Assembly: GCA_947034885.2 (NCBI GenBank)
Contig: OX344751.2
Coordinates: 11,036,001-11,100,000 of the forward strand
DNA length: 64,000 nt
Direction: 5' to 3'
Source of the DNA: Thuidium tamariscinum
Lineage: Eukaryota; Streptophyta; Bryopsida; Hypnales; Thuidiaceae
Position numbers and translations under genes: made by a program. The notes under the pieces were generated by a model. The model was given only the letters and a program-made list of their open reading frames with translations. It was not told the origin of the DNA and searched no databases. Shown here piece by piece: positions 28,111 through 52,397 of this stretch; position 1 is the stretch's first letter; every line of letters starts with the position of its first letter.

Positions 28111-30528
28111 TCAACACAACATCCGGTCCGCCTCCTTTCGATCCTTCTCTTCCTGTCGTTGAACCTTTCGTGCTTCTGTTTCACTGCGCCGTTCTTCTCG
28201 TGCTTTGCAGATGGCTTCTCTACGCTCTGCTTTAGCTGTCATGGCTTTGATGTAGTCGTCCGAAGTCATTAGTATGGATTTGGAGTAATCAATCAGTGGT
28301 TGAACTCTGTTTGTGAGCTTGCGGTGGGGAAGCTCCACTTGGGGTAGGGGGAATAGAGGTCGCCGTGTTTGCAGCAGTTGATCTTCTCCATCACTATCTG
28401 TATTGTCCTCTGAAGCAGCGTCGCAGCTTTCATTCTCAACAAAATATTGAGGTGCCTCTGCTTCAGCCATGTTGAAGCTTTCTTGTTCTGTTCCTTCGTT
28501 GCTGTCAGAGTCCTGCTCAATTTCGACTATATCAGGTTCTGCTGCTGCTGTGGCCTCTGTGTAACAAGTGCTGGGCTTCATGTACCGATCCATGGCTGAT
28601 GGTAGCAGTGGCCAGATTCCAGTGGCTGCAAAACCTTTCTGTATATTTTTGCAAGTCAATGCTTTCTTCAAACCAACAGACACCCACTCAGCTAGTACTT
28701 CTTTGCTTGCAGCTTTCCCATTATTAGAATCAGACCATCTATCTCTACAGGCCCTGAATGCTGTCTTGAATGGCTTGAATATACTCACATCTAATGGCTG
28801 TATTATGTGGCTTGTGTGGCTAGGGAATGTGATGATGTCCAGACCTCGAGATTGAGCCTTCATCACCACTTCTAGGGTTACATGTGATCCATGTCCGTCC
28901 AGTAGTAAGAGGTGTCTATTCTCCTGTGAAATGCCATACCTCTCTTGAACTCTATCTAGGAAGAATGAGAGCCATGCAGAGAAAAGAAAAGCTGTCATCC
29001 AGCCATTGATTTGCATTGCAAAGCAGGAACCACCTTCACATCTGATAATGAAATTGCGTTCTTGTCGTTTACCTCTGAAAATGTAGTAGTTGGGGATGTA
29101 ATGGCCAGCAGCATTCATGCAAGAGAGAACTGTGAGGTGCTCTTTGCTATTGGGAATTACCCTGTGCACAGATCTGCTACCTCGTTTAGCAAATACTAGA
29201 GTTCCCCCCCCTCCTCTGCTAGCTTGTACACCTGATTCATCTGCATTCCAAATGTGAGAGGGTTCATAGTTGTGTTCACTGTATGCAATGTTGAGGTTCT
29301 TATAGAAAGAAGCTACACTACTTGGATTCAATCCCTTTGCCCGCCCGTCCTCCAAGCTCTGAGCAGACCTCAAAGTGAGTTCAGGATGTCTATTTCTAAA
29401 CCATCGCAGCCAACCGCGTCCAGGGATACCGTCTTTGAAAGGTGTCAACCGATCTTGTGTCATCTCAGCTACTTTTCTCTTCAGTTCAAATACACTGATT
29501 GGGTGTGCATGCTCCTGCATTTCTATCATCCAAGTCACAAGAGCACTCTCTTCTTCCACACCTAGAATGCCTTGCCTACCTCTCTTGCGTTTCAATGTTT
29601 TGCCATACATGTAGTCTCGCACTGTCGATGCAGGTATGCCCATATTTTGAGCTGCGCCACCCATGCTGCACCCTGCATCCACTACTGCCACTGCGGCGTT
29701 CAGCTGCTGGTTGCTCCATGTACCATATACTTTAGGTCTTGTTCGTCCAACAGCACTTGTGCCAGCTTGACCACTTGCATCCTATGTTTGCCCACTTGGT
29801 ACAGTAGCAGTGACGACTGTTGGTCCTTTTCCTTTCGGGTCCCCTCTGTCTTCAGTGTGCCTCTTCTGTGCTAGGCCAACGCCATCGCTGTCGGTCTCTG
29901 TGTCGGACTCCGTGGAGCTGCGACCACCGCTCTCTTCAGGCTCCAATGACCTAATGTCGGCTCCGCTCAACGGAATGCAGCCAATGTCGGCAATCTTCTG
30001 CGGGGTTGGCGCTGCACTGTCGCGCCGATTTGGGGGGGCCATGGCAGTGCTGTCCATCCACCGCGTGCGCTTCCTTCCATCTGTGGGAGCCACTTCTGCC
30101 TGCAGTGGCGCACGTACTCCCTGCGCTATTGAAGGTCGCCGCAGTTGCTCTCCATGTGCTGTTGGAATTTCTTGCTGTGGTCGGATTGGAGAAACCCTGC
30201 CTACGAGACCACCAGCATGCATGCCTTGCGCTCCATCTATTGTTGTGAATGTTCTTAGTGCTTCTAGCTGCCATTGTTCTGCAGGTTGTTTCAACTGCCA
30301 ATTTGAGAAGCTCTCATGTGACGCTTGTGCTGCAATAGGCCTAGACACTGGATGCATCAACTGTGCTACTTGCCTTGCATGCATGGAATTGAAGGTAGGA
30401 CTACCATATGGAGACCAAGGTCCGATCCCTACTGTACTGTATGACAATAATTCACTTGGCCATCGCTCAATCATCCTCTCACTAGTCTGACTGACTGACT
30501 GGTCCTCTACATTGCTACTGTCCATCAT
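28111..30528 (-). pseudogene. Pogo/Tigger-type transposase with one in-frame stop
   Basis: One minus-strand frame runs from the ATG at 30528 to the TGA at 28111, broken only by a TAG at 29782-29784; the two parts are in the same frame. The first 248 residues are polar and low complexity. After the stop come a psq-type helix-turn-helix (TWSNQQLNAAVAVVDAG to STVRDYMYGK), a CENP-B-type DNA-binding segment (WLRWFRNRHPELTLRSAQ) and a DDE_1 catalytic domain with three acidic positions: NADESG (about residue 150 of the 526-residue open part), LLLDGHGSH (about 266) and QPLDVSIFKPF (about 300), the D-D-D pattern of pogo-like enzymes. These cut and paste TA-flanked elements. The tail is basic and charged (KAEREAICKAREERR-like). 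I could not find the element's terminal repeats. The stop may be a nonsense mutation, or the upstream part may be a separate first exon. Confidence 0.8.
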
Positions 30529-31478
30529 GTAAGTAGTAAATCCTCTACAAGTATGCTCTTCAAGTTGATCAACTACACTAAAGCATTAAAATCATTCATG
30601 TCTTGCAGAATGCAGAAGGTAAGCTTCATCATTCACAAAGTGAATAGCAAGTGAGTTACTGAGAACTGAAAATTAGGGAAGACGAAGCTCTGCTTGTCAG
30701 TACAGCCGCCAATATGTGCCCTTCATTATGACTATACATTCAAGGAATTCAACTGCCACTAAACCCAATTTACGCCCATTTACTACCCTTGTCAACATGT
30801 ACTGTATGGTCTACTGTGAGGAGTAGCCCCTTAGCTAGCAATCACTGTTAGGTAAGCTGTCCATTGCCACATCACTAATTCCATTAATGTAATTCATGGT
30901 CTGTATAAAATCGCGTGCATATGACTCATTCTTGAATCCTTCAGCACTGTAAGCTACAGGAGCCGTCACCCATGCTCACTAATTTTTTAATATTCTCCAC
31001 AATGGGACTACATCAAATGGTCATGAGTACCATCATAGGCTTCGCCCATGGGGATAGTCATTTTAATGGGTGCTTCTACCTTAGTACAGGTGTTTCTTGC
31101 ATTTACCCTTTAATGAAATTTTCCATGCATATGGGTCAAGGTTGGGACTTGGGAATTAAATCGAGCATTCATCAGTTTCAAGGCAATCAATTTAATTAGA
31201 ATTGGTTATGAGTTTCAAGGCCTTGGACTCCAGCCAACTAGGGAGCCCAATGCTTTACGTAACCAGTTGTTGACTTTTCAACACTAACATGGCTCTATGC
31301 CATAGGTTACCCATCACCATCGCCATGACAAGTTGCAGCTCATAACCTTCTTTCCTTTCAACTTCCTTCCTTCACCTTTGGATCAAAGATTGTAATTGAA
31401 AAATGAAAAATCGGTTATGTCCAATAACCTTCTCGCTACTACTACTACTCAAAGGTTATCTAAGCTAGAACTAGGCTC
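30529..31478. other. Intergenic DNA between the pogo gene and the giant element
   Basis: No gene is supported. The segment includes a short (CTA)n run near 31437-31450. The right boundary of the pogo element should lie here but was not identified. Confidence 0.4.
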
Positions 31479-31513
31479 TTAAAACACGGAATTCGTTATT
31501 TTTGCACTTGGCC
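31479..31513 (+). repeat. Left terminal inverted repeat of the giant element
   Basis: It begins TTAAAACACGGAATTCGTTA and matches 52189-52223 in inverse orientation over 35 of 35 bases. One more base inside also pairs. The flanking sequence outside is unrelated to the right flank. Confidence 0.85.
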
Positions 31514-31990
31514 AAGTACAATCATACGACACTAGAAAACACGGATTTTTAACCCCTATGTTAAAGTGGTATACCATTTTCATAAGAATTTCATGGGCAA
31601 TTCTTTTTGCAACATTGCTTCGAAAACATTTCATCTTGAAAGCAAATAAAACTATATTGGCCTAAAATAGAACAAATGTACATGTCCATTACATACTAAT
31701 TACATATTTTTTATTATAAAAACATCCAGAAGGTACATTGTTTTAGTACAAAAGACACATGGCATGTCCTATACTGATAATCTTCAAACCTTTTTGACTT
31801 TTCTACTTACAATTAGTCATATTTAGAACATTGCACACCATAAACTTACTATTATTCACTTTTGAAACTCTAATACATAATTTCCTAAAACAAACTCATT
31901 TATTCTAACTATACTTTCATAAATAAAACTAAATATATTACTATATACTACTACAACTTTCCGTACAAAACTAACAGTTCTCTCCCTATT

Positions 31991-34900
31991 TTAATCCATT
32001 GCGTCTGGTGTTTCTGCTATAATCTCTGATGATTGAGTGCCACCCTCTTCCCTCTCTTCAGTATCTGCTAATCTTGTGTTCAATGTTGTTGGAATTTCAA
32101 GGGGAGAACCAAGTTCCACATCATCCCTACCTCCCTCGGCTTCGACCTCTGGCGAAGGTATCGCATCCATGAGCGCTGTGTCATCTAAAACTGAAGTCAC
32201 TTGTTCAAATGTATATGCCCCTTCTATACCATTGCGATGATATCGAATGCCTTTTCGATCATGGAATACTCCATTTGCTCCTTCTGTCATTCCTTGGTCC
32301 TGAGAAGCCCATGCAAGAGATGTCTCTGGAAATTGAAATCCACTAGCCAATGTGGGATACAAAGGATCATCTTCGACACTAGTTCCCGTATCACTTGGAC
32401 GAATACTTTCCCCCCCCAACTCTTGAACCTTCTCGGCCATTTCAATATCTGTTGCCTCCGATGCAGGTACTGAACTATCTTCCATTGTTGTGTTCCCCTC
32501 TGTTTCTATTTGCGCTTCCTCAGTTGAAGGAATGACTTCCGCTACTACACCTTGTTCTGTTGGTGTGTCTTCCATTCGCCCATCATTGTCTTGATTTCCT
32601 TCATCTTCTGTAACAGGAGGCGGTTCAAGTACATCATTCATGTCCATGTCCATCATGACATCTTCCTCAGTAACCATCTCCCTCTCCACTAGTGCATGAT
32701 CAGAAGAGCCATCTACCCTCTGTGCTTCGTCTGTTCCTGAAACTATGTTCCCAGTACCTGTATGTGCTTCAGCACTCGTGGCCTTCAAATTTCCTTTACG
32801 TTCCTTCACACGTTCTTTTCTCTCTCTTCCTTCGAATGCCTCACTCGAAATAGGACTTCCTCGTTCTGATGAATCATCATCTTCTCCTGATGACGATTCC
32901 TCTTCATCTGATGAACTCTCCTCGGACTCCGATTCATCATCTTCTAACTCATCGTCTTCTTCCCCTTCCACATAGTCTTCGTCATCATCAGTACTTTCTT
33001 CTCGATCTTCCAACCCTTCTCTCTCTGGAGTATCCTCGGAATGCAAATCTTCACCTTCTTCTTCATCCTCTGCTTCAGTGCTGAATATGTCATCCTCTTC
33101 CACTTCTGCCCTTCTTGGTACTCTTGCAGATACTGACGGGCCTGCGTGAGGTGTCACATTGTTCTGTGCCGCTTCCTTCAATGTATTGTACAGGAAACGG
33201 GTTCGATCTACTGATCCATCCAACACAATCACTTGTGCACCTTCAAAAGGGACTTCCAATACTTTAGGCAATGAAGTGGTGATGCCAACTGCTACAAGGC
33301 CCCATTTCTTCGGTAAATATGATGCAACCAACCTTCGTAACTCTGTAGCGGTTCTCTCCACGCAGTCTACCTCCGAGGGCATGCGTTCATTGCTCCACTT
33401 ATCAGTGAATACCATTGGTACTTGCTCACGACTACTTCTGAGGTTCTCTACCCCCCTTGATGAAGTTGGATGCATCATCACAATTCCAACACCTCCTAGA
33501 GCTTGCACAGTACGCTCTGTCTGACCATCATGTCGAAAATCATGACTGTAAGTTGAAACTGTTTGTCTTTGAAACACCCACATGCCTGGAAGCCAAGTAC
33601 AAGCCTCCGGTACTGCCATTCTCTGTCTCATCCCATCATCAAAAAATACTCCTGGTGGAAATAAGAAAATTGCAGTCCACCTATACGTGCCTTCCATCCA
33701 CTGATACAATTTCTCCATCACTGTATTGTATTCAGTGTCTGTCCAAGCTTCATCCTCTCCTCTTCCTCCACATCGCCTACAATCAAATATCCACAAGCAA
33801 GGCAACCCCAATTGTACGACTCCTTGTGTCAAAAAAGATCCTCTGCATCGAATGAGAATGTTTGCAGTTCTATTTGCACGCGTTGTACATGATACAAGCA
33901 CCTGCCAATCCCATTGTGCCTCGTCCAGCTTTGAAACACCTGTAGTCACACCTTCGTATCCTGACTCTCCACGCTGAATACTAGCATAATGATCAAGAAT
34001 CACTGGAGAGATTAGCGTTGAAAACCTCCCTAAAGCCTCAACAGTCTTAACCGTCGGAGATGACCAAGCGTTCTTCATTTTCTTGTCAACAACTTCAGCA
34101 AGCAACTTCAATTGCCTCTGACTCTCTCCTTCAAATCTTTGTACATTGATAGCCACAAAGTTCTGCAATGTCCGCGGATGCTTCACTCCATTCTCAACCA
34201 ACAACCACCGTATAGCATTTCGTACGGCTTCCTTTCGTTGAATACGATCTGTGGCCCAAGCCAATGTGCCTTTCATTAGAGTACCTGTACCAGCATTGTT
34301 GAAATAATACCTTTGCTGTGGTCGTTCACCATCCGCTACAGGTTTCGCAGCCATCTCCTTTGCCAAAAGATAGTACATGGTTTTTGGAACTCTGCCTAGA
34401 GGTCTCAACCAATGACGCTCCATCCTCTTCCTTTCTTCCCTTACATCCACATTTGGACTCAGTGAATGTTTACTTGCATATCTTTCCCACTTCCGCTTCT
34501 CAGCCTTACTGTACCACAGAATCCCATTCTCATAATCTCGACAGATTTGTAGAACAGCTGCATACACTGCATCATCTTCTTGCCAAGCATGACATGTATA
34601 ATCAGCCATCCTCTTGTACATTACACCCAAGGACTCGCTTTTTGATGTAGACCTTGTCCAGTGCAATGCACTTGCCGTCATTGTAACTGCTCTGGCTCTT
34701 CTTGCATCATCACCTCGCACATTCGGATTGGGTCTCCCACAAGCCTCCCAAATGGCCCTCAATTTCATGAGGTCTTCTTCCATTGTTGTGTAGAATTTTC
34801 TCTCAAATTCTTTTGCATTTATACGCACAGAAGCTTCAATGTATACCTTTTCATCATTGTACACAAGGAATCGAGACTTCCGCTTTGCAAATGTCATTTG

Positions 34901-36517
34901 GTATTCCTCTGCATCCATCCATCCCTGCTTATACTCCAACTCTGCTCGCTTGCACGCCGCCACCACATGCTGACCATCGACAGGTTCCCATATGATGTTG
35001 TTTTCCAACCAATTTAACCTTGCCTTCTCTGGATTTCCTTCAACAGCCCTTGCGTTATGTAGAAATGCTTCCTCAAAGTGCTTCACTGGATCCTCAGTTC
35101 TAAATGGAATCTCCCTCCGAATTGCAGCGCCTGTATTATCCACACCCTCTAAAACATATGCCAACGGGCGCAAGGTGAGTGGTGAGATATTTGGTTCTTC
35201 TCTACCATAAAGTCGATTGTACATTGCCTCGATTCTCTTCCCAATTAAAGCTCGATGGTTTGTCTCCACATTTCGTACATCTTGAATGTTCTCTATCCTT
35301 GCATTGAAAACAAGATCCATTCCCCAAATGTATCCTGCCCAGAACTCTTCATTTGTCGGAAACTTTATAAGTGGACCTCTTACCAATGAGGTCTGCGGTA
35401 CCACATTACGCTCTTCTTCATCTGATGTTTCTTCAACAACAAGAACATCGTCTTCTTGGTGCTCATTCTCCCTTTGTACACTCGCTACTCCACGTACCAT
35501 ACCTGATCTTGTCACTGGAGGTGCAACAAGACGTTCTTGTTGGTCATTTCTATTTCCACTCCCAAACTGTAACTCTGGCCTTGTTGTTGCTGAATTCCTT
35601 GCTCCTCTACTACGCTCAGCCACTGCTCGAGATGATTCCGGTTCTGTAGATACAACCCTTCGATTCAAGTTGGTAGTCGTTGATACAGGCATAGATGAAC
35701 TACCTCTACCTTGTACAGGTAAAGCTCTTTGTCTTGATGCCACATTTTGCTGTGACTCTTGTGGCTCAGATGCACTAATTCTGCGTGAAGAGTGCCCTCT
35801 GCTACTTCCTTGAAGCCCCCTGCCTCGACTTCCTCTCACATTCCTAGAGCCGGTAACAGTACGAGATTGTTCAACATCCTCGGCTGGTCCCTCTGCCGGA
35901 CGTCTTCTACCACGTTCGGAAACTGGTACCCAATTCTTATTGCATGGTTCAGCTACAACCCTGTATATAGGATCTGTTTCTTCAGGGGCTTGTGGACGAG
36001 TTCTATCTTGAGCACTTGGTGTAGCTGTTCTTGGCATTTGCTCATATGCTAGCAACTCCTGTAGGTAATGTTGAGCTCGTAAAATGTTCTCTGGACTCAG
36101 TCCTCGAAACCTCTCCACTGCTGCACTACGTGTGGTCTGAAGTAATGCGGGCATGGAGGTCCAATTCTCTTCAAGACTGCGCAAAACTCTCATTGGCTTT
36201 GGAACATCCATACAACAACGTGGAATGGGTGCCATCATGAACTGTTTCTGCAGCTTAAACTTCCCCACTTTCCCTTCATCCATTGTGACATTCACGAAAA
36301 TTACTTCTTGACCCGAGGTAGTCACTGATTGCACTTTCCCATGCTCATGGCCAAAAGCTCCCCAATGTTGACCATCCTGAAGTACTCGATCTGTGATCCA
36401 AAGCAATGGAGTCTCAACACTTGTTGCCTCAATCCACCACCCATGTTCTATCCAATTACTGAATGTCTGTGTAGCCATAACGATCCTGTAATTCATCATC
36501 ATGAAACAAAAATCCAT
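31991..36517 (-). CDS. Very large orphan protein of the giant element (1508 codons)
   Basis: Uninterrupted minus-strand frame; I do not recognise a family with certainty. Likely translation starts at the inner ATG 36478 (MATQTFSNW), or the frame is joined to an upstream exon through an acceptor (gatgaattacag) just before it. Layout by residue: 1-110 a compact Trp-rich segment (IEHGWWIEATSVETPLLWIT); about 150-370 a basic, Ser/Arg-rich, probably disordered stretch (RGSRGRGLQGSSRGHSSRR); about 395-860 a predicted helical domain rich in Trp, Tyr and Arg; about 868-1120 a domain with alternating hydrophobic strands (CLWIFDC, AIFLFPPGVFF, WGLVAVGITT, AQVIVLDGS), order and spacing loosely resembling beta-class N4/N6 DNA methyltransferases but without a clear DPPY; about 1130-1508 an acidic low-complexity tail. 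Long intact coding next to a decayed transposase is unusual. A DNA-binding or DNA-modifying accessory role is inference only. Confidence 0.75.
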   Translation of the reverse strand: MDFCFMMMNYRIVMATQTFSNWIEHGWWIEATSVETPLLWITDRVLQDGQHWGAFGHEHGKVQSVTTSGQEVIFVNVTMDEGKVGKFKLQKQFMMAPIPRCCMDVPKPMRVLRSLEENWTSMPALLQTTRSAAVERFRGLSPENILRAQHYLQELLAYEQMPRTATPSAQDRTRPQAPEETDPIYRVVAEPCNKNWVPVSERGRRRPAEGPAEDVEQSRTVTGSRNVRGSRGRGLQGSSRGHSSRRISASEPQESQQNVASRQRALPVQGRGSSSMPVSTTTNLNRRVVSTEPESSRAVAERSRGARNSATTRPELQFGSGNRNDQQERLVAPPVTRSGMVRGVASVQRENEHQEDDVLVVEETSDEEERNVVPQTSLVRGPLIKFPTNEEFWAGYIWGMDLVFNARIENIQDVRNVETNHRALIGKRIEAMYNRLYGREEPNISPLTLRPLAYVLEGVDNTGAAIRREIPFRTEDPVKHFEEAFLHNARAVEGNPEKARLNWLENNIIWEPVDGQHVVAACKRAELEYKQGWMDAEEYQMTFAKRKSRFLVYNDEKVYIEASVRINAKEFERKFYTTMEEDLMKLRAIWEACGRPNPNVRGDDARRARAVTMTASALHWTRSTSKSESLGVMYKRMADYTCHAWQEDDAVYAAVLQICRDYENGILWYSKAEKRKWERYASKHSLSPNVDVREERKRMERHWLRPLGRVPKTMYYLLAKEMAAKPVADGERPQQRYYFNNAGTGTLMKGTLAWATDRIQRKEAVRNAIRWLLVENGVKHPRTLQNFVAINVQRFEGESQRQLKLLAEVVDKKMKNAWSSPTVKTVEALGRFSTLISPVILDHYASIQRGESGYEGVTTGVSKLDEAQWDWQVLVSCTTRANRTANILIRCRGSFLTQGVVQLGLPCLWIFDCRRCGGRGEDEAWTDTEYNTVMEKLYQWMEGTYRWTAIFLFPPGVFFDDGMRQRMAVPEACTWLPGMWVFQRQTVSTYSHDFRHDGQTERTVQALGGVGIVMMHPTSSRGVENLRSSREQVPMVFTDKWSNERMPSEVDCVERTATELRRLVASYLPKKWGLVAVGITTSLPKVLEVPFEGAQVIVLDGSVDRTRFLYNTLKEAAQNNVTPHAGPSVSARVPRRAEVEEDDIFSTEAEDEEEGEDLHSEDTPEREGLEDREESTDDDEDYVEGEEDDELEDDESESEESSSDEEESSSGEDDDSSERGSPISSEAFEGRERKERVKERKGNLKATSAEAHTGTGNIVSGTDEAQRVDGSSDHALVEREMVTEEDVMMDMDMNDVLEPPPVTEDEGNQDNDGRMEDTPTEQGVVAEVIPSTEEAQIETEGNTTMEDSSVPASEATDIEMAEKVQELGGESIRPSDTGTSVEDDPLYPTLASGFQFPETSLAWASQDQGMTEGANGVFHDRKGIRYHRNGIEGAYTFEQVTSVLDDTALMDAIPSPEVEAEGGRDDVELGSPLEIPTTLNTRLADTEEREEGGTQSSEIIAETPDAMD

Positions 36518-39500
36518 TAGTGATCAAATTTAGGTTCAAGAAAGATCTTTGAACTGACTTAAAGATGTATGGAGTTACAAACGTATTCCAGCGTAGATGA
36601 AAAGAATATGTTATTTTTCTTTATTGAGGCGCTTCAAAAATAAGTCCCTCCCAATCATAGAGACCCAATTCTATTTTTCTTAAAATCCTACACATTTAGA
36701 GAAAATCATATCTACAACCACGAGATGAAGATATTGAACATTGATATTACAAAGCAATCGAATGTTTTTATAGCTCTTTGAAACATCTTCATATATACTT
36801 CAAAATACATCACATCTACCCAACTAATTCAATGATGACTGAAGATTTCTATTCTCTCAAATTTTCAATCATAATAGCAAATTAAAAGATTTATGAAATA
36901 CTATGCACAACTACCTAGAATTGTACGTTATTTGACTTCCACATGTTATGGGATTTCTTTCTATTTGAAATTGCAACACATCTATATCTAAACAAATTCA
37001 ATCCTTAGTTACCTTTATTATCTTCTTGATTTGTTGTTGGATTTCTTATTTTTATATATACATAAGAGGTGTGCTACAGTAATTTTCATCTACATAAACC
37101 ATGTTGTATTTTATAAATGTCTACCTATATAAAACAAAATAACTAAAGTATCAAAATGTTAGGTGCTTAAATTTAAAAGTAAAAGCATTCATTTATATTC
37201 CTTTCTTTTACATTTTTTTTTCTTTTGGGACATGAAAGGTAGGGCACATTGTTTGTATAGTTAGTACAGGATACTAAAGGACATCCTCCCTAGCCAACAC
37301 TGTAACTTCAATTGATTTCAAATTACTTAAGATTTATGAATAAGGTAGTCTAACCTATTATACATGTTACAAAGTTTTTTTGACGTTAAGAACATTTTAA
37401 CATTTCATCTACGATTTTTGAGAATAACATTCATGTACCTATAAAGGTCCAGGTATCTTCATATTGCTTATACAAAAAAAATATTACAATTTCCTATTCT
37501 TGGAATTTTACACAATCATATAAAACACATAAAGTTTTAGAATTCAACTTCTTCCCAAAATCTCTATTTTTTGTCAACAACAAAGTTCAAGTACAACATG
37601 ACTACAAATCAAGTGCACTTCAAATCGCCTATTTACACGCTGCAGGAAACTGTTATAGTCCCCAAGCATGTATGAACAAAACTTCTAACAACCCAACGTT
37701 CATATGTCATAAGATTGTGAAAGCAAATGTATGATGATCTATAATAGTCATACATACTTAAGACACTTACAGTTTCAAATAATTAGTACATGTAGTTGGG
37801 AAAAATTGTTTTGAAATTCACTTAAAGAAATGACGGATTAAATTTTGAGGAGTCATATATTGATTAGAGTTATGTAGTCCCAGCCCTTCAACTTAATATT
37901 CTTTTAGCAACCACATTTTCAAATTCTACACATGTAATCAAAATTGGAAGGTTCAAAATTACATTTAAAGTTTCTATACCCTTATAATTAAAAAAAAGCT
38001 TAGAAAAATATGAAACCACCTGGATTAGATGTCAATTCTACTTGTTTTTCAAGGTAAGTTTACTGAAAAATATTTTAAGAGGTTTTACCTCCCTGAAATT
38101 CTGTTTCAGCCCTTAAATGGTCCATTATAGGACCTCTTACCTTAGCTGCGGTTTTTATGTGAAATGTTGGCAAACAATCCCAAGCTAGTAAGGTTTCTCG
38201 TGACAAGAAATCGGTATCCGCATCTTCTTAAACCGCAAAATTGTTCACCTAACCAATACTTCAACTCCAATTAAGCTCAAATGACTTAAGATTTATGGCA
38301 AAAGGTACTAAACACCATTATACATCTTACAAATTTTTTATGACATTAAAAAAAAAGGTAACCACTTTTGTTCAATACATTTTAAAGACTAAGATAAAAG
38401 TTCTTAGATGTACTCTACTTCTTTCCAGACTTTGATTAGAATTTCTCTTAGTACAAATTTAAGTACATAGAAGCTTGGGAAACTTATTTTTTCTGAAAGT
38501 CAATGTAGTCCAACTTAACTTTAGTAGCTCTAATGGGAGGAAGAACGCAACAGAAATCAAAGTCCCTGAATTATAGTTATTTTGTTATTAGCAATGCAAT
38601 GTTCCATAAATTAGTGTTTTTTCCATGTTCCTTTATATTGTAATCCAAATTCATTGGTACATTGCGTTCTTGAACATTACACATTCATCCTATAATCTCT
38701 CTATACCAAACACAAAAAAAAATTTAAACTTCATAAGTACCACAATGTGCTACAACTTCAGCTACATTTCTATTCATAGTCATGTATAGGACCTATAGAT
38801 TACTTCAATTAAGGTCTAACATTTTTTTCCTAAAATATGGTGCTCCTAAAAATCATAATTACTACAAAATTAGCCCCAAATCTAATATATAACTTATGAA
38901 CATGGATACAAATAGAGAAATGAAGATACTCATTTGAAATACAAACGTACTAACCAGGGACTAAATTGGTGATTTCTTCTCCTTGTTTAATGAACGCAAC
39001 ACTTGAATTACTTGTAACTTCCAATTGCAAATGCTCTACACCAGACACATATGAGGAAATTGTTAGTAAGACTTACAGAAGTTTATTCCACCAAATTGGA
39101 ATACAATTCATTTGAGTCCTCTTCTCTCAAACCATCGCAAGCAAAAAACGGCTTATGAAAATGTAATTGACATTGCGAATACCACGACGCTATTGACATG
39201 TATAGAATAGCAAATGAGTGAGGACAAATACCAAGAACTTCAAAGTTAAAATAAGAGAATTCACAACACCTTCCTAATACTAGTAGACATTGAATAAGGC
39301 ATAACACTCCTATAACAATGATATGGACAACTCTACATGTGTCAAACTAAAAAACAAAGAATGCGTACTCTATTTCTATAAGATATTGTCATGGGCTCGC
39401 ACATGTCTACATCTTCTATTTCCCCAAAAAAAATAGGACTATAGAGACTCATACATTAATCATTGCCAAAAACATTAAAAGACTCATTAAAAAAATGTCA

Positions 39501-42100
39501 TTTGCTTAATAGATAGGCTTTAAATAATGAATACCTTTTTAGTAGATGTACTAAAAAGTAATTTTTTTAAAAATATACATATTCATTATAAGGTATAGTC
39601 AAGTATCCACGGACTGTTTCTCTTTTTTTCTCATTCAATTGAAAATATATATTTTTTAATCCATTAGCACTTGAATAAATCCTTCTTTTATTTTCTAAAC
39701 ATTTTTGCTCACACCTAAATAACTACATTATAATTTACCTCAACATCAATAAATCCATGAATCAAGAACTTTTCAAGAAGAATTACTTAAAAAGGTTTAA
39801 TGGATGAGAAGTTCTATAATAAAGAAAAACGTTGAGACCTCCTTGGTAATTTATCCAACATTAGGATACCAAAGCTTTAAGAATTAAAATCTAATTCTTC
39901 CACATCATCTTCTATGCAAAATTATATAATCAATAAACTTGAATAGGATAGATAATAAATTGATTTGATCTCTCTTTTAACTATGATATAAGATGCTAAA
40001 GTTGTCATTCTAAATAGTTTCCATACAAGGGGTTGTTCTGTGGTTTTCAAAGCATAATCATAGGGCTTCGAACCAAATTGGAAGACTTCAAACAGTAGCT
40101 GTAAGTTCTAAGCACTTCTTGGCTATGTAATTCATAATCATTTCAATTTCTAGAGTTTACTCAAAGAAAATTTAAAATACTCATATTTCTTATTGTTTTG
40201 CACTTGAGAAAATGTTGAAGTACGTCATATATCTTATGATTTAACCCACATTCCTTTGAGATCAAGTAATGTTGGTTTTACCTATAATTAGAATTTGAAA
40301 TTGCAAATATGAATTCTTTTTTTCCAAATGTTTTCTTGTATGACATATGTAAAATGAATGACCCCATTCATTGCCTTATTAAATTCAATCTTGTAGAAAC
40401 TCTATTAAATTTGTATTGGATTGCATGTGAGCAAAGACCATATGAACATGGCACATAGAAGAGGGCTCTTAATCCCAAAATGACTCTAGAATTTCCTGGG
40501 CTTCTAGATATTTGCTCTAAATTAAACAAAAAGTAAATATTTTAATAAGTTGTATCAATTTTTTTAAAATTGTAACCGTATAAAATCAAACTAGACATGT
40601 TAGAGATCACATTAGAAAAGAAAACACAACAATATCTCTTACGGATTGGAAGATTATAATGTTTCATCATGAGGGTGTTAAAATTGTGACAGTGATTTGA
40701 AGTCTTTTAATCCTTTTTTCACATGTTGAATCTAAAAAGTTGGTCACCAGAAATTATGATGTTAAAGATCCTAACATGCATAACCCCAATAAATTCATAG
40801 CTTGTCAAAATCTACTCTACAATTTTTTTATATGAGTTTCTAATAAGATTTTTTCTCAAAGATCTAGTGTATTTGAGGCTCATTCTCAAGAGCCCTCAAC
40901 ACTACAAAAGTCAAGATTGCACTAGACACCGGTGCACAAAATCTTAAATAGAAAAATCACATTTGTACATTTTGAACAAGGCGTGAATTTTTTTCGAACT
41001 AAGCATAGATGGGTCTTAAAGAGCCTATGATCACAAACACAGACCTACACCATTTTGTGTTTAAAATTTCTTAACTAATTCAATAATACTTCAAAAAATG
41101 TGAAATAACCTGTGTTACATTTGGTCTTTATTTCCCTTTCACTGAAAAATAAGGTAAATATATTTACATCTCAAGAGTCACATGAAATGACACATCCGTG
41201 CTTAGATGGTCGCTTCCTAAGGCTCTTTCCTTACTTATATTGACAATGTTCAGATTGATAAGATGTAGCACCAAAGACTGTCATAACCAACATCAGCGCT
41301 TATGAATGACCCAACAGCCACTTTGGATGACAACTAATACCGATGAAGATTGTGGATCATTAAGACACAACAAACAAGACACTGCTACTTTAATATAGTT
41401 ATTTGTAAAGTCCCCCCACTATAGGCATGACTTTTTCTGAATTTAAAAAGGCAATTATAGTTGAAGCAACAAACTTCTTTGTAGGAAACTTATGTCATAT
41501 GACTTCAAAAGTGGGGACCAAACTTTTGTAGTCACCATTTTGATGGAAAACTAAGTTTCATACCAACTTTTAATTCAACTTCTTTAACTCAACCAACTTT
41601 TTGACAAAACTCATGGGTTTAAATCCCAATTTAGGGTAATTCATGAATAACTCAAAGATACATATATTTTCATATCCGCATCTTGTTCTGGTTATTTGCA
41701 AGGTGCCTTACCAACACCAATAATTTCAACTACTGAAATGAAATTGACACCTTCATTAACACTCCAGAAATGTGAGAGTGTTTAACACCATCATGGACAC
41801 AATGAGGACAATTACAAGCATATTACCAACTTCTGATTTGAACTTCTTCATATACTTAGTCAATGTCCAAAGAAATATGCTTCATTGTTAAAAAATTGTC
41901 TTCGACAACTTACCATCAAGAAAGATCCATAGAGAAACTCATTTCTGTCTCTGTTTAATAATAGTGAGTATGGTCAATGGGTTGCCGATATTGCTGACAA
42001 TCAGTGCTCTTCCTTAGCTTCAATGTGAAGCAAATATCTCTGTTTGAGTGCCTTTGGTGTGTCGATAAGTTGCTTGAGTCGGTTTGCGTTGCCGCCAATT
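36518..42100. other. AT-rich interior of the giant element, no gene
   Basis: No coding support. A stretch at about 37996-38150 repeats, at about 85% by eye, the DNA at 52398-52548 outside the element. Both contain gttagatgtcaattctactt-like and ctccctgaaattctgtttca and end at an inverted TAAGGTAMGAGGTC terminus, so this is a dispersed transposon family. Two related 120-base stretches lie at about 37290-37410 and 38250-38370. Confidence 0.5.
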
Positions 42101-43950
42101 CTGGACAAGGATTCCAGCGTTCTAAACGTTAATTTGCAATTACACAGAAGCTAGTGCAGAGGCAAGGGCTACATACATACTGCTAGATGACATTCAGCTG
42201 TACCTTCCATTCTATCAATCACTTGCAAAATTTTGGGGACAAGGACAGCGACCAAGAACTTCAATTCCAAAGTAAAGAAAAAGCAAGTACGACAACATAA
42301 ACAATACCACCACAGGCACAACCATAAACAAGCAAGTAGGAACAACAAAAAGACCAATACCTCAGCCACAACCACAAATGAAGAGTGAATCAAACAAGAA
42401 TGCAACAGGTTGAGGCAAACATCAAGCACACAGCAAGTGGAAAACAAACTATCAAGCAAGCACCAAGGTATGTCACTTATGCAAAATCAATCACTTCTGT
42501 TAGATCAGTCATCTCAATGTGTAACAATATAAAATTGACATAACTTCTGCGTACAAACTCCCAGGCAAGGAGAGGCTGGGGAGTGAATCACACAAAAACA
42601 GGCAATGCTACTATCAGGAGCTTGAATAAGCCCTTTCACGAATTCCGCTAAGTAGACTAGAAGTTGCGACATTGAAAACGTAAGAACATGAAGCCTCGCT
42701 ATGACAAATTTCAGCCTTTGTTCACCTGATCACTAATCCTATCCCAACTGATATTGTTGAAGTGACGGACCTTGCGTACATCTTGCATTGACAAGTATCG
42801 ACCCGAACTCCAGTATCTAAGTTGAGGTATGGTACACCCCAGTCTAAAAACCGCAGAGAAAAAAAAAAACAATCACCGGCTCACCGCGAACCCACGGGCG
42901 GACTTCCGTCGAAGTACTTTCCAGCGACCTTTCCCACGCAAGCTCGACCAGGAGTAACGGGGAACTCCAAAGCCGCAAGGGTTCCGCGAGAAGGAAGCTG
43001 GGTCCGACTGGCCTGTCCTGTGAGCCTCGTCCAGCTCCGCGCCGCCCAGGCTCCCGCCGACCTGACACACACGCGTCACGCGTGGGCCACCGGAAAAGCC
43101 GGAGAAGAATCTCCGCGCTCCTCCTGGCCTGTCGTCGGAGCCTCTTCAGACGTCGTACCGCCCAACGCCCAGCGCCCGCTGCCCAGCTCCCGCCGACCTA
43201 ATCCACAGGCAGCGTCCCCGGATTATGGTGAATGAATCTATGCGACCTATAGCAGACAGCGTAGTACACTCAAGATGCAAAACAACGGGTCATCCTCTTT
43301 TGATGAAAATCACAAGTTGAGGAAAAGCACAAGTTCCTCACCAGCAAACCTTAATCCACAGGTGTACAGAAATGCAAGCTCCAGAAGCGGTAAATGAGCT
43401 CAGGTACTTGCTGACAGCCCTGCGACTCAGAAAATTGCCCCGCTCAGTCAGTGCGATGTTGCAATACCTAATTGAAAATCTCACTCCCGTACAAAGGTAG
43501 GGTTAAGAAATTCAAGAAGAAGGAGCTATTTCTGAATCTGAAATCAACATAAGAACCTACTTCACTCAAATTCTGCTCATATGATAGAATCACCTTGGAA
43601 CAGGAGACCTTGGGCGCACAAGGACGGGAGCAGGAGGGAAGCAAGAGCGAAGTAGCCAGGGAGAACACTGTAGCACTTCGGCGGCAGAGGAAGGAGGCAA
43701 GGGTTAGCAGCAAACGCTAAGCCAGGGACGTCAGCAGTAGACACAGACTCGCAAGGACAATCGGAGAGAATGGAAAGCAGAGAAGAAGACGACCATCGGC
43801 GGGGGAGAAGAAGAGCCGAAGACCGCGTCGGAATCGAAGGCGAACCCTTCTCCGACCCCGCGCGGCCGCGCGGGGTCCAAGAGGTGAGTGAGTCCGGAGG
43901 TCCCAATTGGCCTTTTTTTTTCCAGTTGATCGACCAGTGAAGCTGAAACT
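42100..43950. other. GC-rich island inside the giant element
   Basis: About 42820-43250 and 43580-43900 are markedly GC-rich (accaccggaaaagccggag-like) amid AT-rich DNA, with open frames on both strands (for example 43906-43577 on -), none with a recognisable domain. Donor-like CACCAAG/gtatgt occurs at about 42468. It could be a captured host gene fragment, a promoter with leader exon, or a remnant of another element. It lies roughly mid-way between the two divergent element genes. Confidence 0.35.
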
Positions 43951-44009
43951 GCTGGACCGTTTCGAAGAAAGTTAGAGTCTTTCAATCTGTAAGTTAATAA
44001 GAACCCCAT

Positions 44010-44146
44010 TTGTTATTTGTTATTTGTTATTTGTTATTTGTTATTTGTTATTTGTTATTTGTTATTTGTTATTTATACCTTTCGTATCCCATTCATACAA
44101 TCCGTTATTTGTTATTTATACCTTTCGTATCCCATTCATACAATCC
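44010..44146 (+). repeat. GTTATTT tandem array and a duplicated 43-base unit
   Basis: About eight to nine uninterrupted copies of the 7-mer GTTATTT run from 44012 to about 44074. Then a 43-base unit (two GTTATTT-type copies plus atacctttcgtatcccattc and acaatcc) is present twice, at 44061-44103 and 44104-44146. The 7-base period resembles plant telomere repeats in length but not in sequence. Confidence 0.85.
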
Positions 44147-44477
44147 TTATGGGTTTTTTCCCCTTCTTATCCCTTGTTTGATGCCCAAAGAATGTGCTGT
44201 AATTATTTGTTTATGGCCGATTTTGAAATTCAGTTGATTTTGAAATAAGGTTATCTTCATAAGGTGATTTCTTGAGATTTTTCTTGTTCTTCAATTCTAG
44301 TTTTTCAAATTTCCGAATTAGGTTTTGAACTATTATCAATGGAAGTCAAGCACTTGATGTACTTACACATTTGTAACTTTAGATAATTATGTAAACTAGG
44401 TATAACAAATAAAACTCTCGGATAGAACAAAAACTTTATAAAGGATTTTTGAAAATTAGGATGACTTTCACCAAGCA

Positions 44478-45709
44478 TTAACCCTTGAACCCCTGAATAG
44501 CATTTTTTGAGAATATAAATTTTGGGGGCGGCTCACTACGGATGGCATTTTTATTGTTTTTCTTTGAAATTTTGATACAATGTGTGTCCGAGGAGTAGCT
44601 TTAAGGCCCAAAAATTTTAATAACTTTTGACTTTGTAGATAGAAAGTTATGGCATGATCTCTCACTTTGTTTGCTCGGTGGTCACCAAGCATGAACCCCT
44701 AAACCCCTGAATAGCGTTTTTTGAGAATATAAATTTTTGGGGTAGCTCACTATGGATGGCATTTTTATTGTTTTTCTTTGAAATTTTGTTACAATGTGTA
44801 TCCAAGGAGTAGCTTTAAGGCCCAAAATTTTTAATAACTTTTGACTTTGTAGATAGAAAGTTATGGCATGATCTGTCACTTTGTTTGCTCGTTGGGCAAC
44901 CCGCGCAGCTGAAAAAACTTTTTCAAAAAAACTTATTTTTGGAAAATGAAATTTCAAATTGATTCTTTAGGTTTATACAGACATGGGAAGCTTTGAATGA
45001 ATCCATTCTGATCAATGAGTCAAAAGTTATGAAGATTTTGAGTTTGGGGTAGTTTGCGGCCATTTACAGAATCTCTACAGTACAAAAAAAGTTTGAAATT
45101 CTTCATTTAATTCAATTTTGTATATTTTTGGAGAAAAATAAAAACAAAGGGTGTAGATTGTTTATTACAACATTTTACCCATTGGAATTGAAAATTTTCA
45201 ATTCTATGAATAAAATGTTCACAATTTAGTATTTTGGCTTAGTTTTTACTTCTTTCTACTTACTTATTTTTTCCTATATGTTGTACAATTCCAAATGGTT
45301 TTAAATTTTTTGAGAATGTAGCCAACTTGCATTGAAGTATGAATTCAAAGAATAAGCACCATTCTAAATTTTTTTTCACACAAATGTGGCCTGGGGAAGT
45401 GCAGTTGCCCGGATTTTCACAGGGATAAAAAAACTTTTTTATGTCAATTCAAATGCTTATATCCTGCAATCTACACAGTGGAAATTTCTGAAATTTTTTC
45501 CACATGTTTACAAACCACCTTACTACAAGATCCTACGGTTTTATGAGTCTTTTTTTTTTAAAACTATGCTCTAGTGTTAGAAATGGTAGTTCTGGAGCAT
45601 TTCTTTGGTGAAAACGACGTTCAAGGCTTTAGGGGTTAAGAAGACAGAAAAAGTATTGTAGAATGTATTCATCGTCCAGGAATCGGACGTTGGCACGCTT
45701 CAGGGTTAA
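44478..45709. mobile_element. Composite TTAACCC-ended element(s) inside the giant element
   Basis: TTAACCCTTGAACCCC starts at 44478. The right side has two candidate ends, CTTTAGGGGTTAA to 45639 and CTTCAGGGTTAA to 45709. A 215-220-base unit is tandemly repeated (about 44475-44690 and 44694-44910), both copies carrying gcttta-type and acttttgactttgtagatag motifs. The same sequence appears as long inverted arms at 57092-57610, so this is one repeat family with TTAA-CCC termini. No coding frame. Confidence 0.55.
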
Positions 45710-48574
45710 TCCTATGGAGGAATAATCTTGGAACACTCACTTCGAGCGTAGTTGTTGAAAACTCAATACTCTGTCATTTTGGATGTACATATGTATGATA
45801 AATATTTTAGAATAATAAACAAAGAAGGAAGTGCATGTCATGGTCTTCATAGATAATGTAGATGTTCTTAACCAAAAATGATTTTCATGAGAGTTCTTGA
45901 AGAAGAATTGGAGGACAGTTCTATAAAAAGTTAGTTTAAAGAGCATGTCATGAATAGTAGTTTCATCTGCAATGAACATTTTTGAATATTGTAAAGTACA
46001 TGATTGCAATGGTTACAGAAAGCATGATTTTTGCAAAGAATTTTAAGGAATTCAAAGATCAGTAATTGCAATCTTCTACAACATGTAAAATTTCAGTGCA
46101 ATTCATGGAACAATCAAAGCCCGCAAGAACTTTGTAGGGTTTACTCAATTTAGATGTTTGTGAAGCCTATAGTCATTGAATACGAAATTGTAAATAATAA
46201 AAAAAAATTTATTGTTTTTAAAGAAATATATGAAGTATATATATATTTTGCCAAGCGAACTGCTTTTTGGACTTAGTGTGGTATAAATTTTTTTTCTAAA
46301 TTCCTATTGAAATACAAATTATGTTTTTGAAAAGGTAATCTGATTTCCTATCTTCAAAAAAAGTTTTAGAAAATCATAGCAAAACTATAGGTTACAATAG
46401 AATGTCTAGAATTCGAACTGTCCCTGTAGGGGACATCAGTCCTCTATGTTTTAGAAGGCTGTTGTAGAGCAACATCTATGAAATACAATGAATAGCTAAA
46501 TAAATATTATGTCTTATATGTTGCCTAAAATGCACAAATCCCAATGGTCCAATTTCTTTAACAAGTGAAGTAAACAATGCAGTTTTTTTTTTAGGTTTAG
46601 TAAAAATTGTAGTGAAAATTTAATGCATGAGGTCATGTTGTGAATAAAATTATTGAATTCACCAAGAAACAAGTTTTTAAATAATTTTTCTCATTCAAAT
46701 CTTTATGAAATGATTTAAAGCTTTCCATATAGAAAGAAACATAATTCATGAATTTTTTTTTAAAAAATTTTAGAAGTTTTCGTAAGAAACAGTTATTGTT
46801 TTTCTCTTGATGTGGTCTATGTCGATGAGTCCTATGAATTTATTAAAAAAAATTCTTGAACAAAATGAAGTATGAAAAACTTGAAGAACTATGAAAATAT
46901 TGTGTTTCATGAAAAGAAGACCTAAAGGTTTTTGACTCTAATAGACACTTGGATGTCAAGTCCTTTGAAAGTATTAGAAAAATTCAAGAAAATAACATGA
47001 ATTCATGCAATTTGTTGAACCTTAAGGTGCTCCCCTTCAACCATTTTCATCTTCGAGAAAAGTACTGTATCTTCTCTACAAGTGTACGTTGGTACTGTTT
47101 CTTGTGCACATGAAGGAGGTGGATTATTCACTATTAATTTTTTTATTATTTGGTCTTGTGTAATAGTTGCAAATGTTTGTACAGGCCAATTGTGAGCTTC
47201 AAATTTTCATTTTGGGGTGCAAAGAAGGACCCTGAACCCCACAAATAGCAAAAGTAGACATCCAATCGCGGGTTGTTTTAGAATAGTGAGATAATATTTA
47301 GGAATTAGAAAAAAATAATTTATGTTTGGAACTTGTAAGTGTACCTTCATTTCAAGTTCTAAATGAATTGGTGAAATGATGCGAAGTTGTGAGTAAGGAA
47401 ACACCTGTCTAAGGGCAAAGGGAAAAGAAATGAGACAGACTGTTCTTGTAGTCATTTGATACTTTGAACGTGAAATCTTTTGAGGTTGCTACATCTCCTT
47501 TATTTTGAGCATACTTCGGCCTAACTTTTGGTTGTAAGCACTAATGGAAAGAAGATTCAAAATCCCATGCAGAACACCTTTTTGTATATGTTCAAAGAAA
47601 GTTTCATAAAATGAGGATGAATTAGGGCTTGTCGATACTTAATTGTGCCGAAATTATTCTTCTCGAAATAAAAGAATTCCGCAATGTACTTAAAATATGA
47701 ATGACAAGAAGTGCTAGAAGACACATTATCCAAAAAAAAAATACCTTTAAAAACATCATGCTGTCAAAATGGGTGGAAATAGGGAAAAGAAATTGCGCTT
47801 GTTTCGACAAGTACGGATTCAAATTCAATCGAGGACCCCAATGATCGCTATTTTGAAGGTCTCATATGAAGGTTCAAAATTTATGTAATGTTTGTTTTCT
47901 GATGTCATACCTTCATTTTATACTTAAAGTAATAAAATTTAAAAAGTGATTAAAAATGATGAATTACCTAATTATGATTTGTATACCAATTCTTGTGATT
48001 GTTCTCAAATATATATTGTCATCTTATACGTGTGAATGCTGTCAATGGTGTAGTTGAGCTCAAAAATCACTTGTGTAGCGTAAAAATTTCCTTATCAAGG
48101 TAGTCGAGGTTATAGTCGAAAAGCATCAACATGGACAACTGCTTAGTGTGTTCTCACTTGTCTATAATTAGGTAGACTCACAAGTTCTATACAAGTTTAT
48201 TAAATGATTGTATTATAAGTAGTAATGAAAAAAAAACCTAACATTTTATAATAGAAGTGGTAGTAGAAACTATGTTCAAATAAAGGAGAGTCATAGAAGT
48301 GATGAAAATCCTGTACATGGCACTGTTCCGAATGTATTTTCCAATATAAAGAGAAACAATGGTTTATAGAATTAGAAAAGTTGCCTTCACTGAGTAACAA
48401 AGAGTGTGGCAATGAACATAGCCTACCTATAATTTCTTATACTTTTAATGATTATAATGGTCATTGATGATTGTTTTATAGAAAACAAAAGTAAATTTGA
48501 AGGGCATGTCCTTTAATAAGTACTTGAATTTCTCTGTGGAATTGCAATTTCATTAGGAATTCTTAAAAAAATGA
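45710..48574. other. AT-rich interior of the giant element, no gene
   Basis: Only short chance frames are seen. The stretch may include the 5' leader or upstream exons of the transposase gene, but no convincing exon is visible. Confidence 0.45.
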
Positions 48575-48595
48575 AATGTTATTTACATTGAGTAC

Positions 48596-51500
48596 ATGAA
48601 ATGTCAGGAATCAAGAGTAGCAGTAGATGCAAGGGCTTTTGGTAGTCCAGTGGTTGAGCCAACGCCAGAAGCAAGAGGAGTACCAGAAGAAACGAGCATT
48701 GGACAAAGAATTGTAAGAGCTTGTCGTGCTAGACTATTTGAAGATGGTAATTTACGAAGACAAGACAGAGAAGCGGAAAGAAGAGAGAACGTGGTGGAAC
48801 TTCTTTCAGAAGTAGGAGCTGTTGTAGCAACCGGAGTCATTGACAAAAGTATTGTTTGTGGGATGGAACTTCATCATATAAAATTATAGCCCCATGAGGT
48901 TGCCGTGCGTGTTTTGAATGTTGTGGATGGAACAATATGGACAGGGGAAAGTGTGGGAGAGCGCCTTGGTCTATGCACGGGATTGGTGATCCGTTGGAAG
49001 AAATCCAAAATTCAAGAAGTTAGTGTGGGAAGGCCAAATGCCTCAGAAGCTAGACAACAAAACAATTTCAGTTTTTGTCGTTCACCAACATCAGAGTTTG
49101 ATTTCCACGAGAGCATTGGCAGTCCAAGTCCTTCAGAGATGTCTTTCAGCACAATTGGTGATGTCAATGTTCTCCAACAGAACTCACCAAGAGTGGAGCA
49201 AGGGAGTATTGGTGGACCTTCTCAGGAAAGAAGTGATGGACTACAAAGATCTAGTGACACGAGTACCCAAAGTTATTCAATGGTGAATCGAAGAAGACGA
49301 GAAAGAAGAGCACGTATAAGAGGAGAAGCATTGAACCAAAAAGTAACTTTGCAAAGTGTCTTAGCAGCCAAAAGCAAAGGTGCTTGCAAAAAGAATTGCC
49401 TTAGTGCAATTGATGAAAAATATATTTTAAATCAAAGGTATATGGCTTGGGGACAAAAGTATGAGCAGCGATCAACATGGATTCTGCAAATGTTGAACGC
49501 TTTCTTCACAAGAACAGAGGGACATGCTAGACACAAGTACGCAACGAAATTGGATGGTTTTGATGTTTGCAATGCATGCTATGCAGCTGCTCTTGGATAC
49601 TCTCAAAGGTGATTCAAGCAATTGAAGCAATCACAGCAAGTGTATGGAAGAGTGACTGCAATACATGGGAACACATGTCAGCTAAGAGAAGGCGCAGTAA
49701 TGTCAGCAACACGAGCAAGCTTTGAAGAGTTTGTCAAGGAAGCTGGGTGCACACAACCGCACAGGCAAATACGGAGGACAGTTGATAACAGCGTAGTGCC
49801 ATTGATTTTATTACCCATGAATACAACGAAGAAAGATGTCTTCGAATATGTGAATGAGGAAGTGAAGAAGATGGTGAATGGACAAACATTGAGCCTTGTT
49901 TCATTTCGTAAGTTGTGGCGAAAGGAATTTCCACACGTACAAATTCCACCATATTCTCGCTTCTCAAAGTGTTACCATTGTTGGGAGTACAAGTGTGGAA
50001 TGGAGGCTACAACAAATGCAGTAGCTCGCGAGGAGATAAAGAAGTTGTATATATTGCACATCCAACATCAAATGGAAGAGAGGCATGATTATTGGTTGTT
50101 CAAAAGGTCAGCCATGATAACACCGGATTTCTTTATGTGTTTGATAGTGGACGGCATGGACCAGAATACGACCATGGTTCCCAAGATGAGACAATCTGTC
50201 AAGAATATTGAATCCCGGTTTGTGAAAACTCACCTTTGTGGAGTTCTAGTGCATGGGATAGGATTGTATGCAGATGTGTGGATAGACGCACACCATAAGC
50301 ATGACAGCAATCAAGTGATTACCAGTATAATGCATGTCCTATCAGATGTACAAAGAAGGAAGGGGAAGCTACCACCAACTTTGCGAATTCAAGCAGACAA
50401 CACAACTCGTGAGAACAAGAACATATATATGTTTGCTTTATGTGCAGCTCTAGTGGGCTTGGGATTTTTCAAAGAGGTGCAATTGTCTTTTTTAATTGTT
50501 GGCCATACGCATGAAGACATTGACCAGAGGTTCAGTATCATTTCGAACACGTTGAAGAGGAAGAACATTGATTCTATGGATGAAATGTTGGCTTTGGTAG
50601 AGCAGGGAACATCATATACAGAGGCCTTTGTTAGTGCTCGAAAATTGGAGAATGTTCAGGATTGGAAGTCATTTATTACACCACATCTTTTGCGAGGAAG
50701 AGATCAATTGACGGGGATAACATTTCCACACCATATGAGGTTTTACGTGGAGAATGGATTACCTCGGGTTCAACATAAACACTTTAGCAAAGATGCGTGG
50801 GGACCAGCGGAGGGACATCTGTGCTTGGACTCCTTACCGATTACAACAAATAAACCAGATTTTGCTGAGGTGGCAGCAGCAGATGAGAGAGAGTTGAAGG
50901 CATTGGAAGATTTCATAAAGTACAAGGAAAAATGTGTGGACAGAGGAATGGAGGTTCAAAAGAACCATGAAGTAATAAAGAAGACGAAGGACTTCATAAA
51001 GTACTTGAAAGAATTTCCCACGTGGGATAGAACAGTACAATTGAACATGCCGTTTTGGCCATCAACAAGTTCAGAACATGAAGAGAGTGGTACTGAGTTC
51101 AATAGTATTCCTCATGAAGGAGAAGAACCTAACAGGCTGGTAACAACAGTAGACTCTATTATGGCAACTATGCCAGATCCAGAAGCTCGAGGGTACTTTG
51201 GTCCACGAAAGAACAAGCCAGCATGGAAAGCGGGGACAAGAGCTCCGAGGAGAACAAGGGTACATGAAATCGGAGAGACTATAGCTTCAAGAAGCGTGGA
51301 TGGAAGCCAAGATCCGTTTCCTATGTTTGACCCCGAAAAAGACCTAGATGTTGGACAATTTGTAGCCTTGCATGTGGAATCCACCGAAGTAAGAGCAAGA
51401 GTGCCATTCTATATCGGGAAAGTCTTAAAATTTGGTCAACGCAAGCGAGGAACGGAGATGAAGGTCATATGGTATTGGCCGATGATAAGGACGGGAGATG

Positions 51501-51799
51501 GAAGAGAAGGAAGATCTATAGAAGAACGGTACACAAATTGTATGGAAAAATTGTGGGAACCCTCTGGTGAGAAACACGATTGGGTGTACAAAGAAGCAGC
51601 TATATTTTCTTGGAATGACATGCCGAGAAGAACAAGAAGTGGGTCTGTGCAAGAAAATAATGTACAAGTGCGCGGAGTTATGACGGAGAAAGAAATAAAC
51701 ATTCCAGCTTCTGCAAAACCTCATATGTTGGAGTACATAGCCTTGCATCTAGAGCGCTTGGACAATGAACGATTGGAGAATGATGTAGGCGCATTTTAA
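48596..51799 (+). pseudogene. DUF7869-like transposase gene with two in-frame stops
   Basis: One + frame runs from the ATG at 48596 to the TAA before 51800, interrupted only by a TAG at 48887-48889 and a TGA at 49610-49612. Protein-like sequence continues smoothly across both, and the gap at the TGA is far too small for an intron. The N-terminal part has Cys pairs (GACKKNC, DVCNACY), followed by KCYHCWEYKC near residue 118 of the last open part, suggesting zinc binding. The core carries the motifs I associate with DUF7869 proteins: LIVDGMDQ (about residue 176), IQADNTTRENKN (about 257) and VGHTHEDIDQRFS (about 297), spaced like a D-D-D/E nuclease triad. The tail (from about residue 560) is a second conserved-looking segment. 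This enzyme probably moved the element, but this copy appears inactivated. The transposase role is inferred from the motifs and the terminal-repeat context. Confidence 0.75.
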
Positions 51800-52188
51800 G
51801 TTTGTAATAGCGTACAATAGTACATTGGAGCTTAGTATATTAGGTATATAGAGGTTGTGGTAGGGATATTTAGTGAAACTATTTTCAATATATGAAAATG
51901 TAAAGTGATATGTATTTTCAAATTAAATCATTAGTGAAAACTATTTCATCTACCATTGAAATGTATGATTGAAGTTAAGGAGTTCAATGTTTTTCCCAAA
52001 ATCATCCAATGCATTTCTTCCCAAACCGTAGGCATCAGAGAAATATAAGAACAATAGTACTACACAAATTCTAAAGAAAACATTCTTTTATTTTGTACAA
52101 ACCCAAAGAAAAAATGGGGGGAATAGGCCCCCCCCTTTTGGCAATGAGGTCAATTTGGCTCATACAAGTCATAAGTGCAATTTTATAT

Positions 52189-52223
52189 GGCCAAGTGCAA
52201 AAATAACGAATTCCGTGTTTTAA
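52189..52223 (-). repeat. Right terminal inverted repeat of the giant element
   Basis: It ends AACGAATTCCGTGTTTTAA at 52223 and is the exact inverse of 31479-31513. The TTAA at its outer edge mirrors that of the left end. Confidence 0.85.
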
Positions 52224-52236
52224 ATGGAGTGGGTTC

Positions 52237-52340
52237 TAAAATGGTGCCCTACCTTAAATGTACAATATTTGTACATGATGCTTTTTCAATAACCTTCAAC
52301 AGTGTATTGACAATGTACGTTTTAGCTAGGGCACCATTTT
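52237..52340. mobile_element. 104-bp MITE next to the giant element
   Basis: TAAAATGGTGCCCTA at 52237-52251 and TAGGGCACCATTTTA at 52326-52340 are exact inverted repeats. The left end is only 13 bases from the giant element's end. No coding capacity. Confidence 0.6.
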
Positions 52341-52397
52341 AAAGCCCTATGCCCTTTCAATTTCAAGATTTGATAACTAATTCCACAATGCTCAAAA

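Follow-up and report, generated by a model that had tools for sequence, protein, structure and literature searches.

The window analysed here, a stretch of 64,000 nucleotides from Thuidium tamariscinum (G000:C3:11036001-11100000), very probably contains a 20.7-kb cut-and-paste DNA transposon. That a giant DNA transposon is present had been proposed in an original prediction from the letters alone; the proposal is now strengthened by copies that are 99% identical but have flanks that do not match, by 4-bp duplications particular to individual copies, and by one clean paralogous empty site. The element is framed by an exact inverted repeat of 35 bp (31479-31513 and 52189-52223; 93% complementary over 44 bp), its arms 20.7 kb apart as predicted. 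Chance is indeed an improbable origin: 100 shuffled controls gave no inverted match even when up to three mismatches were allowed, and a simple calculation puts the number of exact 35-bp inverted pairs expected in 64 kb at about 1.7e-12. The TTAA noted at both outer edges is present; however, it belongs to the target site duplication and not to the terminal repeat. Because these outer 4 bp (31479-31482 on the left, where other copies have differing 4-mers, and 52220-52223 on the right) are the duplication, the element proper spans 31483-52219 (20,737 bp) and has exact terminal inverted repeats of 31 bp, the left one (31483-31513, forward) starting with AACACGG and the right one (52189-52219) lying in reverse orientation.

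Close to the left end, the near-palindrome TTGCACTTGGCCAAGTACAA (31502-31521) is a candidate protein-binding site; in most other left ends displayed, it is replaced by AAGTGCAA, a perfect palindrome. A divergent end elsewhere on the contig (G000:C3:36611488-36611534; 87%) carries the same TTGCACTTGGCCAAGTGCAA palindrome with different outer bases, and perhaps represents a related family.

As had been described, the two genes of the element face outward and end near opposite ends. ORF1 (31991-36517, reverse strand) is an uninterrupted frame of 1508 codons, with an acidic C-terminal part and a conserved core at approximately residues 388-1115; its stop codon is 508 bp away from the left end. The DUF7869 transposase gene (48575-51799, forward strand) finishes 420 bp inside the right end. 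Its 1075-codon frame contains in-frame stops at 48887-48889 and 49610-49612 and is thus a disabled copy. In the middle of the element (36799-48486), all open frames stay below 150 aa; dispersed repeats are nested there, the sequence is GC-rich at 42-44 kb, and the region is collinear with the other 20-kb copies, with patchy similarity of mostly 70-79%. One nested dispersed repeat (44232-45819), including a 2 x 214 bp tandem at 44468-44895, is also found outside the element and at the insertion sites of two further copies (C1:20.54 and C1:23.37), at differing positions of the repeat. This can reflect either chance, through high copy number, or target preference.

Directly to the left of the giant element lies a separate element with a Tc5/pogo-type DDE_1 transposase gene (28111-29781, reverse strand; PF03184, PF03221), and upstream of this gene an open frame (29782-30585, reverse strand) without a Pfam match. 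A short inverted-repeat element with 45-bp arms (52231-52347; 78%) starts 12 bp past the right end. Further away, pieces of a TIR/NB-ARC/leucine-rich-repeat type gene extend over several open frames (14140-17429, reverse strand), the TIR part being clear (E 6.9e-17) and the NB-ARC and LRR parts falling under curated cut-offs. The TIR and NB-ARC matches, along with bryophyte hits, point to a land-plant host. The stretch 22450-23310 (forward strand) has a weak match, under the cut-off, to PF22778, the second helical domain of vanadium chloroperoxidase (E 0.0048). Finally, positions 26502-27184, outside the element, match two separate mid-element places in C1:20.54 and C3:16.33 at 72-76%, as well as places in the C7:15.25 locus.

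A search of the same genome for further copies bounded by the repeat, proposed as a check, covered 363 Mb in 19 contigs. Thirty matches were obtained with the left 61 bp and 34 with the right 100 bp; these repeat counts are lower bounds. With end type assigned from the end sequence or from the inward reach of the match, the 30 left-query matches comprise 24 left-type ends (13 paired, 11 unpaired), five right-type ends and one divergent end (C3:36.61). Pairing of facing ends on the same contig, at most 30 kb apart, yields 13 bounded copies. Besides the window copy (20.7 kb), these are C1:20.54 and C3:16.33 (20.05 kb each), C11:12.95 (20.0 kb), C2:24.90 (23.7 kb), C8:23.93 (23.9 kb), C10:9.33 (25.9 kb), C7:15.56 (27.3 kb), C8:21.01 (29.0 kb), C9:15.47 (13.1 kb), C7:24.47 (7.0 kb), C1:23.37 (5.2 kb) and C2:30.46 (0.235 kb). 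In 11 of the 13, remains of ORF1 lie on the left and remains of DUF7869 on the right, several with only a C-terminal piece read or left. Repeats without both genes, which had been named as grounds for refutation, occur in the other two: the 5.2-kb copy has DUF7869 and no detectable ORF1, and at 235 bp the smallest copy has no room for either gene. Both look like ordinary derivatives, and the transposon reading stands; the 5.2-kb copy does imply that ORF1 may be dispensable.

The terminal 4-mers are identical in nine of 11 scorable pairs and agree in three of four bases in the other two (TATC/TATG and ACAT/AGAT); the 5.2-kb and 235-bp copies were left out of this scoring because their terminal bases are degenerate. 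At an assumed A+T content of 65%, identical 4-mers are expected by chance in about 0.6% of pairs. The nine identical duplications are TTAA (window), TAAT (C1:20.54), ATCT (C3:16.33), TAAA, TCAA, AATC, TTAC, TATA and CTGT. The idea of TTAA as a target rule therefore fails, and this variability makes the window's TTAA an accident of that insertion. Of four joined-flank tests for empty sites, all at paralogous sites, one is clean. When the flanks of C3:16.33 are joined with one ATCT, they match an uninterrupted repeat copy with a single ATCT (93% over 581 columns), which sits in that insertion's own left flank. The joined flanks of C1:20.54 can be aligned over the junction, at 68-72%, with copies of another dispersed repeat that have no insertion; these sites carry TTGT, TGTT or TGGT, not TAAT. 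For the window and C7:24.47, a spanning match was not found among the five loci compared.

The assignment of the right-hand gene to a DUF7869-like transposase holds, with the qualification that the frame is interrupted. Its sole Pfam match is PF25273 (E 6.3e-52). A relative, P0004 (1053 aa), is 71% identical over the 728-aa query and reads through both stop positions, so the window's stops are not introns. Conserved acids of DDD type are found at D180/D183, D262 and D302/D304 of the 728-aa frame, and the predicted fold is integrase-like with an RNase H-like DDE/D arrangement; Foldseek alone gave no match in the PDB at E<=0.001. All 45 sequences of the alignment match PF25273, and catalytic-like acids are shared. 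Among the best 120 of 504 matches, proteins with the same domain come from animals, a liverwort and a charophyte; where named, they are 'uncharacterized' or 'hypothetical', and that listing attaches no element structure to them. The locus gives this unnamed domain a likely function, that of a DDE-type transposase, and adds to it the mapped ends and the 4-bp duplication of an element.

The movement of the family is best seen in C1:20.54 and C3:16.33, which differ at 188 of 20,049 aligned columns (99.06% identity, with the middle included; seven gap columns), while their flanks have no mutual match at E<=1e-3. The differences comprise 151 transitions and 37 transversions; by context, the transitions fall into 53 CpG, 47 CHG and 51 CHH, as would be expected for methylated DNA. 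Frame breaks in both copies are mostly substitutions that create stop codons: ORF1 has eight in C1:20.54 and nine in C3:16.33, and DUF7869 has two and three, respectively, with an additional 2-bp deletion in C3:16.33. Stops at ORF1 codons 399, 532, 849, 870 and 966 and at DUF7869 codon 580 are common to both. On the simplest reading, the source from which both derive carried a transposase that was already broken, and it was mobilised in trans; parallel mutation, or loss after movement with the source decaying in step, are less simple alternatives. Sources of transposase may exist, given that long stop-free DUF7869 frames are present among at least 63 matches in the genome (61 of 713 candidates scored). 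One such candidate gene is in the 5.2-kb copy (1062 residues, 91%), its first methionine only at residue 87; others belong to a second group with 66-68% identity (C10:10.10, C6:15.65).

The copies also show signs of a mosaic history. Compared with C1:20.54 in 250-bp steps, the window is 92-99% identical from the left end to the start of ORF1; just upstream of ORF1, identity drops to 79% and then to 64%. In ORF1, 19 of 622 four-fold degenerate sites differ, and in DUF7869, 66 of 368; dS is 0.042 and 0.236, respectively. These divergences suggest that two older lineages recently exchanged the left block; 419 bp of right 3-prime non-coding DNA, 95% identical, argue against a simple two-block picture. 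A dN/dS of 0.18 indicates that DUF7869 is under purifying selection. For ORF1, dN/dS values of 0.65-0.71 (window against two decayed copies) point weakly to constraint, for which the 40-57% identity of its core region in relatives elsewhere also speaks.

These ORF1 relatives are nine proteins (about 8000 candidates scored per search), named at most 'hypothetical protein', and eight of them cover 52-98% of the core. The locus places this uncharacterized 1508-codon family within a transposon. ORF1 itself has no accepted match in Pfam, PHROG, NCBIfam or the PDB; its relative P0001 has one PHROGs row of note, phrog_35330, of unknown function (E 0.0018). By eye, the succession NHR, SPLTLRP and EPVDGQH is what we take to be a ParB-like motif order, and a C-terminal GITT...VIVLD stretch presumably resembles a methyltransferase motif. 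A comparison of the core with six ParB proteins by hhalign gave a probability of 0.1, and most of 20 column shuffles were equal or higher; the best alignment fell on the DGQH motif, but shuffled profiles scored equally well. For a DNA methyltransferase domain, Pfam, NCBIfam, PHROGs and the PDB gave no match, and the structure model of the core is poor (pLDDT 51.5).

Taken together, the best explanation is a transposon whose DUF7869 protein, probably a DDE/DDD transposase by its acids and modelled fold, would bind the ends, cut, and join with a 4-bp stagger. The two stops in its transposase frame have probably cost the window copy its autonomy, and stop-bearing copies would move, if at all, by transposase from copies with open frames. 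ORF1 is proposed to be an element-borne accessory protein. Our best guess, modelled on a proposal for the ParB/methyltransferase protein of the Ectocarpus element Sola1-1_Ec32, is that it would bind its own element's DNA, for example at subterminal TTGCACTTGGCC motifs, and so aid evasion or management of silencing.

Other origins for such a locus have to be weighed against this transposon. PiggyBac and Kolobok are TTAA elements, and TTAA flanks both edges of the window copy; a member of either group is nonetheless exceedingly improbable, as TTAA is found in one of 11 scorable pairs, the eight other identical duplications differ, and the transposase, with DUF7869 as its only Pfam domain, is different. 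TTAA targeting was rejected on account of this variability across copies. A coincidental pairing of two unrelated smaller elements with matching ends could account for the poorly conserved middle of the window copy and its nested repeats; its probability is negligible, and it was rejected, in view of two copies that are alike over their whole length, middle included, and of both genes occupying the same ends in 11 of 13 bounded copies. Large size, two genes and an ORF1 of no known kind might suggest a segmental repeat that does not transpose, or DNA of viral or provirus-like origin. This is highly improbable: the copies have their own 4-bp duplications, the flanks of the two most similar copies do not match, and IMG/VR contigs, scanned with a small set of short peptide patterns that work best for close relatives, yielded no confirmed relative of either protein.

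Two narrower readings concern which transposon this is. The first, given roughly an even chance, is that the element is a Sola superfamily transposon (Sola1) of a land plant, with ORF1 as a diverged fusion of ParB and DNA methyltransferase that marks or binds element DNA, the mechanism being otherwise as outlined above. The motif order and the methyltransferase-like stretch, recognised by eye, speak for it; the hhalign result, no better than shuffles, and the lack of an accepted database match for ORF1 speak against it. It also draws on the 4-bp duplications, the DDD-type acids, the size of about 20 kb and an accessory gene opposite the transposase strand, all of which agree with published descriptions of Sola elements (PMC12477816, PMC10741241). 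The second, more tentative and rather doubtful, is a lineage of giant transposons in non-flowering plants, in which ORF1, a new family unrelated by any detectable similarity to known domains and kept beside DUF7869 in copies of 13-29 kb, would be cassette-swapped between diverged lineages and would act on element chromatin or DNA, so that very large, trans-mobilised copies persist.

The pairing of these two proteins had been presented as not known from described plant elements; a comparable layout, that of the 21.5-kb Sola1-1_Ec32, is in print for a brown alga, Ectocarpus (PMC12477816). It combines a transposase with a large accessory gene read from the other strand, whose 1104-aa product has a ParB-like and a DNA methyltransferase domain; among the giant elements of the Ectocarpus genome, transposase pseudogenes are frequent, movement in trans is implied, and nested insertions are fixed (PMC12477816). 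The Sola superfamily is characterised by a DDD transposase, 4-bp duplications, inverted ends and sizes sometimes above 15 kb, and is reported in the moss Physcomitrella (PMC10741241). The window element shares the 4-bp duplication, and its anatomy agrees well, the comparison being one of descriptions rather than sequences. Unlike the 1104-aa algal protein with its two domains, ORF1 has 1508 aa and no detected domain; in its size of about 20 kb, and in carrying a large accessory gene opposite the transposase, the window element resembles Sola1-1_Ec32. If ORF1 is a relative of the ParB/methyltransferase protein, brown algae and plants would have one accessory strategy in common, and the copies of 20-29 kb would suit the study of how giant elements move after their own transposase breaks.
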